IMG/VR virus record: IMGVR_UViG_3300043436_000350
Coordinates: 1 to 43,449 of that record
Length of the DNA: 43,449 bases
Strand: one strand, 5' to 3'
Origin: a virus
Below are positions 22,343-33,256 of this stretch, in pieces. How positions within the stretch are numbered: the first letter of the stretch is position 1; each line of letters opens with the position of its first letter. A program made the translations under genes and the position numbers. The notes under the pieces are model-generated. The model saw only the letters and a program-made list of their open reading frames with translations. It ran no database searches and was not told the origin of the DNA.

Positions 22343-22370
22343 ATTATACACTGTTTTTAGAGTTTGTCAA
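22343..22370 (-). promoter_or_regulatory. Consensus sigma-70 promoter for head fibre and tail genes
   Basis: Read leftward: TTGACA (complement of 22365-22370), a 16-nt spacer, then TATAAT (complement of 22343-22348). Both hexamers match consensus. It lies in a 197-nt non-coding gap, about 100 nt upstream of the ATG at 22241, leaving a leader of about 95 nt. It should be read by host RNA polymerase. Confidence 0.8.
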
Positions 22371-31130: not shown

Positions 31131-31658
31131 TTATTGTACCTTGATTCCTAGACGTTCAGCATCCTCAGAAAGGAGCGACAGAGCTTGTTTATCCAATTCC
31201 TCTTCTTCCTTGGCCTTGAGTTTCTCTTTAGCCTTAGAAGCGTTCTTGTCGTCAAGCCACCCACGTTCCAGAAGAAGCTTAGCGGCACCAAAGGAAGAAC
31301 GCCCACCAGTCCTCATCTCTTTAGCAATAGAACTGATAGCCTCAGATTTGATCTTGACCTCTACTTCCCTACGCCACGTCTCAATGTCTTTCTTGATGTA
31401 GTTACTACGGCAGAGTTGCTGCCAAGTTTCCCACGAACCAAAGACGGTCCATGCGAAGGTGTACTCCGTAGGGTCAGAGCAGCAGTACGACAGATACAGT
31501 TTACGTAGAGACACGTAAGTCTTGTCGTTCTTAACGAGGTCTTCCTCACGCAGGGTGAAGATCACATGCTCAGGTTCGAAGTAAGAAAGCTCCCAGAAGA
31601 GAGACTTCGTGCGTAGCTTACCTTGAGAGGTACGTAGCTGCTTCTCGGAGAACATCAT
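31131..31658 (-). CDS. Terminase small subunit (putative)
   Basis: This is a 175-residue basic/acidic helical protein. The central part ([40 protein letters not shown]) resembles terminase small subunits of marine T7-like phages, which select DNA for packaging. The start at the Met pair 31653-31658 is preferred: the frame is open to 31724, but the promoter -10 box lies at 31715-31720, so an mRNA could not include that ATG. GAGGA lies about 12 nt upstream of 31658. Confidence 0.7.
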
Positions 31659-31714: not shown

Positions 31715-31744
31715 ATATTAACACACTACTTTTGAGTTTGTCAA
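31715..31744 (-). promoter_or_regulatory. Leftward sigma-70 promoter at the head of the late arm
   Basis: Read leftward: TTGACA (complement of 31739-31744), an 18-nt spacer and TAATAT (complement of 31715-31720), or TTAATA with a 17-nt spacer. The context TTGACAAACTC matches the promoter at 22343-22370. It points toward the small terminase and the whole leftward arm, back to back with the rightward promoter at 31817. Confidence 0.75.
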
Positions 31745-31816: not shown

Positions 31817-31845
31817 TTGACAACTTCAAGAAATCTGTGTATAAT
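31817..31845 (+). promoter_or_regulatory. Perfect consensus rightward sigma-70 promoter
   Basis: TTGACA at 31817-31822, a 17-nt spacer, and TATAAT at 31840-31845: both hexamers and the spacing are ideal. Predicted transcription start is about 31851. No protein gene begins downstream for 1.5 kb in this direction; the transcript would instead enter the structured unit ending at 32141. Confidence 0.88.
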
Positions 31846-31850
31846 AAAAT

Positions 31851-32141
31851 TGTCCTTTGGCGGACCCTAAGTATATACTCTATACTATAGGACTGACTCT
31901 ACGTTACTCCTCTATCTGGTTCCTTCCTCTAGGGTAGCTCTACGTTCTCTACATAAGTACTACTTAAGTAGACTGATGCAGATTCCATGGGCACCTTACG
32001 TAGGGGTACTCCTTGGGTAGTCACCCACAATAGGACATACGTAAAGCCCGTAGGGCGTCACAGCTCTGCTGTTCTAGGGTTCAGACACCTAACAAGTCAT
32101 AATCTAAAGCACCCCCTATGGTTCACTCCGTAGGGGTTTTT
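31851..32141 (+). ncRNA. Candidate structured non-coding RNA of about 290 nt
   Basis: The unit is bounded by a perfect promoter and a textbook terminator. Within it I can fold: 31852-31865 (GTCC/GGAC), 31866-31891 (CCTAAGTATA pairing with TATACTATAGG, ten pairs with one bulged A), 32014-32027 (TGGGT/ACCCA, tetraloop), 32046-32056 (GCCC-GTA-GGGC), 32060-32072 (ACAGC-TCT-GCTGT) and the terminator stem. The longest ATG frame (31987 to about 32133, 48 codons) has no ribosome site and an unconvincing composition. Bases 32045-32059 are perfectly complementary to the phoH-operon leader at 4819-4833. The regulatory role is inference. Confidence 0.6.
32113..32141 (+). terminator. Intrinsic terminator of the rightward RNA unit
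   Basis: CCCCTATGG (32113-32121) pairs with CCGTAGGGG (32128-32136) with one G-T pair and a 6-nt loop TTCACT, followed by TTTTT. This is a classic rho-independent terminator. It ends 12 nt before the stop of the convergent HNH gene and may also help terminate that transcript. Confidence 0.88.
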
Positions 32142-32152
32142 CCATTTGTCTA

Positions 32153-32710
32153 TTACAAACCTTGTCGTTTCATCCATGCGTGTAGCTTCAGTACCTCTTC
32201 AGCGTTAGCATCACTCTTCATACGGTTAGCTTGAAGGCTTATGACTGCAACGTTACCTTTAACGTAGCCTAACTCAGGTACCAAACGATCTAGCGTAGGT
32301 GAGTTCTTGGAGGGTTTACCTTGCCAAATAAGTTCCATACCGAAGACTGGGCAAATGTCCGGTATACTCACGTCAGAAACGTCTAGGTTAAAAGGTAGGC
32401 CTTTACCTTTAGCTCGGCACTTAGCACTATGGTACATGTCAGACTCAGCCTGCTTACGTGTTCTTTCCTTACGACAACCATCGGTAAGCCACCTCTTCTT
32501 GACTTCACGAGGTACTTTAGGTTCTTTCACAGGTTTTACGTAGCCATCACGTAGGTATTCAGGCAATAAAGTCTGTAGGTAAGCTCTACGCTCATCCATC
32601 AACTCATCGGATGGGTCGCTACCCTTAGGAAGTTCCATTGGCTCACCTCCCCAACGGAGGATACTGTGTTCTCTACGCTTAAACGTTTTCTTCTTAGCTG
32701 ATATGGGCAT
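32153..32710 (-). CDS. HNH-type endonuclease
   Basis: This is a 185-residue protein. After a basic N-terminal half, the C-terminal domain SAKCRAKGKGLPFNLDVSDV, CPVFGMELIWQG, SPTLDRLVPELGYVKGNVAV, ISLQANRMKSDANAEEVLKL has the pattern of phage HNH/endonuclease VII-like proteins (CP..G..L...SLDR..P..GYV.GNV...S..AN..K). Such genes are mobile or act in packaging and branch resolution. ATG 32710 has GAGGAG upstream and lies correctly downstream of the promoter at 32733-32761; an in-frame ATG at 32761 lies within the -35 box and is excluded. Confidence 0.82.
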   Translation of the reverse strand: MPISAKKKTFKRREHSILRWGGEPMELPKGSDPSDELMDERRAYLQTLLPEYLRDGYVKPVKEPKVPREVKKRWLTDGCRKERTRKQAESDMYHSAKCRAKGKGLPFNLDVSDVSIPDICPVFGMELIWQGKPSKNSPTLDRLVPELGYVKGNVAVISLQANRMKSDANAEEVLKLHAWMKRQGL

Positions 32711-32761: not shown

Positions 32762-33256
32762 CCCCTACCCCTCAAACATTGGGAATTTTATGGCGAAACT
32801 GAAAAGGTCCAATAGTACATGTAAAGGATACCCCGCGACCCCCTGCCTCCGGGTCTGCCAACGTGATCACATTTGCCCCCACCCCATGCGTTTTGTTATC
32901 ACATTCGGACATTCGCATGTGTGCATGAGTCCATTGCGGTATCAGGATACCCCATGTTACATTATAACATTGTAGGGGCAAAGCACTGAGCACATATTCA
33001 AATCTTTGCATCCCTTTGATTACATTCACACATTCATATCTGTGCATCTACGCACCATGCCAACGGATACACATTCACATTCACGCATGGATGCACAAGT
33101 ATATCATATGCAAGAACCTGAATGTATTCCTTACGTATACGCGCGTATGTGTTCCATCCCCGACAAGCTAACGACAACCTAATCCGCACCAGCCTACCTA
33201 TGAGAACGAATCAGGAACATTGATCTTTGTGTCGTTCTCTATCAATTTTGTTCCTA
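32762..33256. other. Non-coding region with iteron-like repeats (candidate replication origin)
   Basis: About 500 nt carry no supportable gene. Three related direct repeats occur: 32901-32926, 33022-33047 (26 nt each, about 21 of 26 bases identical, pattern acattc..acattc....tgtgcat) and a shortened third copy from 33071. CATGTG/GCATG and CACATTC words are dense around them. A 12-bp palindrome ATACGCGCGTAT lies at 33137-33148 and an imperfect dyad TACATTATAACATTGTA is nearby. Clustered repeats beside the early promoter and far from genes fit an origin or a regulator-binding array; this is inference. Confidence 0.45.

Follow-up and report, generated by a model that had tools for sequence, protein, structure and literature searches.

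Introduction

The described systems closest to the locus reported here are phi29 pRNA, phi-OR of phage T7 and the trans-acting small RNAs of phages. Like phi29 pRNA, the RNA proposed below would be a small structured phage RNA encoded beside a genome end; it differs in that the unit has no sequence or Rfam match, in that its phages have direct terminal repeats (DTRs) and a phrog_38 large terminase, and in that the RNA is missing from sister phages whose ends are of the same kind. In T7, phi-OR transcription and a polymerase pause at the concatemer junction have been described (PMC3276506). The likeness to phi-OR lies in a strong promoter that stands near the right end and points at the terminal repeat in DTR-bearing podoviruses of related layout, but phi-OR is a T7-type promoter, whereas the present unit has a host sigma-70 promoter, a conserved 5′ hairpin, a motif and a putatively released RNA that ends ahead of the DTR at a terminator of its own. 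Trans-acting phage small RNAs such as 24B_1 (reviewed in PMC12197685) resemble the predicted product as phage-encoded small noncoding RNAs made by the host polymerase; the unit described here, however, is found in lytic marine podoviruses and at a fixed genome-end position.

Phages of the Veravirus type have a replication arm running rightward, a structural arm running leftward and short DTRs (PMC6775973). The DNA analysed here (the window) is the whole of IMG/VR virus record IMGVR_UViG_3300043436_000350 (43,449 nt), a Veravirus-like cobavirus (Zobellviridae). Its large terminase (phrog_38 large subunit) shares 79% identity with the enzyme of Roseobacter phage CRP-5 and 77% with the enzyme of Lentibacter phage ICBM2, both of which are classed in Zobellviridae, Cobavirinae, Veravirus. 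The ICBM2 and CRP-5 records carry no annotated feature at the RNA unit, and a literature search found no report of an RNA at the cobavirus right genome end.

Results

The first-pass annotation had set the unit at the point where the late arm and the early region diverge. More exactly, its place is the right end of the genome, where the first late gene lies on one side of it and the predicted DTR edge (~32812) on the other. In ICBM2 the right end consists of the first leftward gene, ~500 nt without an annotated gene and then the DTR; in the window the order is g197 (31131-31658, minus strand), the RNA unit, an inserted endonuclease gene and a sequence matching the ICBM2 DTR start. The left edge of the repeat in the window (32812-32835, no strand assigned) is predicted from similarity to the annotated DTR of ICBM2, which begins ATTGTACATACAGCAGGCTACCCCC. 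The late arm has a divergent promoter that points leftward (TTGACA-18-TAATAT, 31715-31744, minus strand) and lies between g197 and the unit; its TTTGTCAA is kept in the alignment of relatives. Phages of marine Roseobacter bacteria thus carry the predicted RNA gene at their right end, ahead of the DTR. In the sister genus Siovirus (ICBM1, ICBM3, P12053L), a short gap with a leftward promoter leaves no room for the unit, which is therefore not essential to the subfamily.

The neighbouring gene g197, the first late gene, had been taken for the small terminase, an assignment that we keep as a candidate by position. It belongs to phrog_8035, which in genomes of the type of Vibrio phage ICP2 neighbours the large terminase, and may therefore be the small terminase; searches with it gave no Pfam, PDB sequence or fold match, the AlphaFold model having a pLDDT of 80.

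The proposed perfect sigma-70 promoter is present on the plus strand (31817-31845), where TTGACA (-35, 31817-31822) and TATAAT (-10, 31840-31845) are separated by 17 nt and match the consensus at 12 of 12 positions. Perfect promoters are rare in these genomes: there are three in the 43 kb window at spacers of 16-18, namely that of the RNA unit, that of the endonuclease gene (32761, minus strand) and one at 22370 (minus strand), and one to three each in CRP-5 and ICBM2. A perfect sigma-70 promoter also precedes the major capsid gene in ICBM2 (28619) and CRP-5 (28106), and the one at 22370 in the window has a similar place in the structural arm. As the major capsid gene region has the same kind of promoter, the timing of expression is not readable from the sequence, and the suggestion that the RNA is expressed immediately after entry is unsupported, as is that of a decoy role.

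The rightward unit ends in an intrinsic terminator (32113-32141, plus strand), again as first described: a CCCCTATGGTTCACTCCGTAGGGG hairpin (32113-32136) is followed by TTTTT, downstream of ~290 nt without a conserved ORF. Taken from promoter to terminator, the inferred noncoding transcript spans 31852-32141 on the plus strand (start ±3 nt), and group A identity (see below) and the lack of a conserved ORF agree with it. An anti-Shine-Dalgarno reading of the terminator loop UUCACUCC was dropped, the loop being different in other relatives. A host origin of the unit was likewise rejected, the terminator pattern being absent from the genome_contigs collection.

IMG/VR was scanned once with the terminator hairpin and once with the -10 region plus the 5′ hairpin. 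Each scan matched 22 contigs, nearly the same set, with the two RNA ends ~200-280 nt apart; the terminator hairpin was identical across the 22, and the unit adjoined g197 in every matched contig reaching that far. These contigs yielded 19 unique RNAs, which fall into group A, containing that of the window, and group B. For most group A members, identity to the window is 92-95% in the RNA body, as against ~72% at the fourfold-degenerate sites of g197. The same comparison gave 97% versus 89% for L003, the relative closest to the window, 92% versus 84% for L006, 83% versus 65% for L005 and 75% versus 60% for L010. Between groups A and B, on the other hand, the body (identity 0.45-0.60) is no better conserved than the fourfold-degenerate sites (0.57-0.64), which suggests long-term constraint on the ends and a few elements.

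A clade search with a g197 alignment found 461 relatives, and the best 80 were analysed, giving 56 more distant loci with enough flank, which were reduced to 25 divergent members. The same layout next to g197 was found in these 56 Veravirus-like loci (best 80 of 461 relatives), an outcome favourable to the proposal that the unit recurs in related genomes. TTGACA-N17-TATAAT is perfect in 45 of the 56, and a promoter matching at least ~11 of 12 positions occurs at the same site in 53, pointing from g197 to the DTR (again among the best 80 of 461). In the divergent subset of these best 80 of 461, the promoter is perfect in 21 of 25 and matches 11 of 12 positions in three, while one has Ns in the -35. 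The CRP-5 copy has one mismatch (TATACT), and in the CRP-4-like relatives (CRP-4, L114, L120) the promoter is weaker or different.

Terminator stems in the other relatives differ, with T-runs after them. Our terminator script recognised none in 6 of the 25 divergent members, yet some of those show one by eye. With a script-recognised terminator, the more distant loci (best 80 of 461 relatives) have an RNA of 114-257 nt; the overall range is 114-290 nt. The distance from the terminator to the DTR motif is 43-136 bp in most, and 678 (window), 784 (L021) and 768 bp (L082) where an endonuclease gene has been inserted. In the window this HNH/endonuclease VII-like gene (32153-32710, minus strand) has its own perfect promoter (32761-32733) and is absent from most relatives. 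Promoter and terminator of the RNA are kept in all three lineages with the insertion. The inserted genes of the window and L021 are 54% identical and belong to separate lineages. The leftward endonuclease promoters of the window and L082 are consensus-like, and transcription from them would run antisense into the RNA.

Given that the body of the window's RNA, taken alone, barely exceeds dinucleotide shuffles in stability (z -1.14, not significant), the six hairpins first drawn from this one sequence were weak evidence; what strength they have comes from conservation. Over 28 members the mean folding z of the body was -1.66, a figure in which several members include the terminator or flank where the terminator finder failed. 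The clearest signal lies at the 5′ end, where the first 28 nt (offset +4) fold better than dinucleotide shuffles in 28 divergent members (Fisher p 1.3e-5), and six other offsets do not. This corresponds to P1, a hairpin at the extreme 5′ end (31852-31865, plus strand, like all helices below; GUCC-UUUGGC-GGAC), which in L005 shows a double change to CUCC/GGAG. Across the clade its stem varies, with AUCAGCCC/GGGGUGAU, GUAUCGCU/AGCGGUAC, AUCGG/CCGAU and GUCC/GGAC as examples; such different stem sequences with pairing kept are as expected from selection on RNA pairing. Some members (L068, L121, L123 and ICBM2) have no more than weak 5′ hairpins.

Next to P1 is the AU-rich ten-pair stem of the first description, P2 (31866-31891), the counterpart of CTATAGTATATACTATAG in relatives. 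It is present with one bulged A, is conserved in 9 of 10 close relatives and has 97% of cells paired in group A; an element of the TATAGTATATA type follows P1 in many relatives. We rejected the AT-palindrome as an operator used elsewhere, near-matches to TATAGTATATACTATA occurring only at the RNA unit in each of three genomes. P3 is a long-range stem whose 5′ arm ACUCUACGU (31896-31904) pairs with ACGUAGGGU in relatives (95.6% of cells paired, with one-sided changes only); in the window an insert interrupts this partner (from 32039). P4 (31912-31937) has a C/U-rich loop, UUCCUUCCU, with 95% of cells paired and one pair changed on both sides. The group A helix model further contains P5 (31948-31972; UCUACAUAAG-UACUA-CUUAAGUAGA) and P7 (32013-32027; UGGGU-AGUC-ACCCA), the latter with 100% of cells paired in group A. 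The double-hairpin insert of ~34 nt (32044-32077, plus strand) belongs to the window only and is absent from relatives. Other short double-hairpin insertions (e.g. CCCGTAGGGCGTCACAGCTCTGCTGTT, CCCTACAGGGCGACGCACTACGTGCTGC) occur near the unit in L010, L007, L004, L006 and L008, and such insertions are gained and lost from one close relative to the next in noncoding DNA, much as small mobile hairpin elements would be.

In the full nine-helix model, 97.3% of group A cells are paired, which proves little by itself because the model was drawn from the same sequences; two pairs show a two-sided, compensated change, so that covariation is thin. A 16-sequence alignment of one subgroup gave a consensus fold with z -10.6 against column shuffles, most of it due to the terminator, and when groups A and B were put into one alignment, no shared fold could be relied on except at the ends. 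Overall, the comparison of structure in related genomes came out for the reading first put forward, a structured noncoding RNA conserved by position and partly by sequence.

Within the variable body, one sequence element recurs in divergent members, GAC-N5-CAGATTC (31971-31985 in the window, plus strand). CAGATTC is found in 10 of the 25 (best 80 of 461 g197 relatives) against 0.1 expected, usually in the form GAC-N5-CAGAT and usually ahead of the terminator. Relaxed to GAC-N4/5-[CA]AGAT or CAGATTC, the motif occurs past the promoter in about two thirds of the 25 (best 80 of 461), and beyond the terminator in L075. A genome-wide DNA motif was considered and rejected: with 7 occurrences in the window against 5.8 expected, enrichment is limited to the RNA unit. 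Duplex energies for phage targets of the motif region gave none consistent between the window and CRP-5.

Searches against Rfam at gathering and relaxed thresholds gave no match (best E 3.7, a chance hit to a microRNA model), and a tRNA/tmRNA search found none. As first stated, there is no convincing ORF: the 48-codon frame at 31987-32133 is broken by 1-nt indels in L005, L006 and L012, and coding conservation of this frame, looked for in the relatives, was not seen. Among family members the longest ORF in the unit varies from 2 to 56 codons.

Discussion

In this study, we describe a conserved unit that is, with a probability of roughly 0.9, a noncoding RNA gene. At the level of sequence we show that it has a promoter and a terminator but no conserved ORF, that its place, its motif and the hairpin at its 5′ end are conserved, and that its sequence is constrained among close relatives. 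It is probably a new RNA family, of the known general kind of phage-encoded noncoding RNA, in an unusual fixed position. A small protein gene, such as the 48-codon frame at 31987, is very improbable, for although this frame is open in the window, it is frameshifted by 1-nt indels in relatives and the longest ORF of the family ranges from 2 to 56 codons.

As to function, our best guess, which we hold at about even odds, is that the RNA acts in trans. Host RNA polymerase carrying the housekeeping sigma factor would initiate at the consensus promoter, and transcription would be strong. The RNA would start directly with a hairpin, followed by the AU-rich hairpin and a variable folded middle, would carry GAC-N5-CAGAUUC, often shortly before the terminator, and would be released there at a length of 114-290 nt. 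The hairpins at both ends may stabilise it, and the free RNA would most likely present its CAGAUUC segment to a protein or RNA partner. We infer trans action from the hairpin ends, from the promoter and terminator being kept although the distance to the DTR changes, and from a short motif conserved in a variable body. Retention of the unit after endonuclease insertion is also more easily explained by a released RNA than by a cis element coupled to the DTR.

The main rival, to which we give a clearly smaller though real chance, is that right-end transcription itself matters: host polymerase firing towards the concatemer junction would aid replication priming, end maturation or packaging, as phi-OR transcription and the junction pause do in T7, and the RNA would be a by-product or local primer. 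The fixed place and direction of the unit, with a terminator usually 43-136 bp before the DTR, are consistent with this, as are a promoter better conserved than the RNA body and a phage group without its own RNA polymerase (stated for SIO1, PMC6775973). However, endonuclease insertions have moved the DTR to 678-784 bp from the terminator and the unit was not lost; mere transcription would need neither the 5′ hairpin nor CAGATTC nor constraint on the body; and Siovirus has the same kind of ends without the unit. A related proposal, that the RNA is a cofactor of the DNA-end machinery (end maturation, packaging or right-end replication) in these T7-like podoviruses without their own RNA polymerase, we regard as rather doubtful.

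Two further readings are both unlikely. The unit may be a cis-acting leader whose promoter, on concatemeric or circular DNA, would drive the early arm through the DTR, with the RNA and terminator serving as an attenuator or a put-like antitermination element. The promoter does point through the DTR to the early arm, and the hairpins resemble the layout of HK022 put, in which hairpins lie right behind the transcription start; but the terminators are strong and end transcription before the DTR, and three lineages have an endonuclease gene in the way, in the opposite orientation, which read-through would run against. Alternatively, promoter and terminator could act as an insulator that shields the packaging site from leftward as well as rightward transcription, and the RNA itself would be irrelevant. 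This agrees with the position between the divergent late promoter and the DTR and with an RNA length that varies from 114 to 290 nt, yet a terminator alone would suffice, and it leaves the constraint on the group A body and the conservation of the 5′ hairpin and CAGATTC unaccounted for.

A widespread marine phage lineage thus appears to carry an RNA gene that is missing from all annotation; its promoter is among the best of the genome, and its location is linked to replication and packaging. The locus is directly testable in the cultured phages ICBM2 and CRP-5. It also raises the question of what use T7-like phages that lack an RNA polymerase of their own make of host transcription at genome ends.

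The DNA next to the repeat has features of its own. A block, GAGAAAATCTTTAGGTGCA, is conserved directly before the DTR start, for example after the terminator in L025, and AGAAAAT precedes the DTR in 20 of the 25 divergent members (best 80 of 461), a candidate packaging or cleavage signal. Two types of DTR, TGTACATACAG and TTTCATGAATA, alternate among close relatives.
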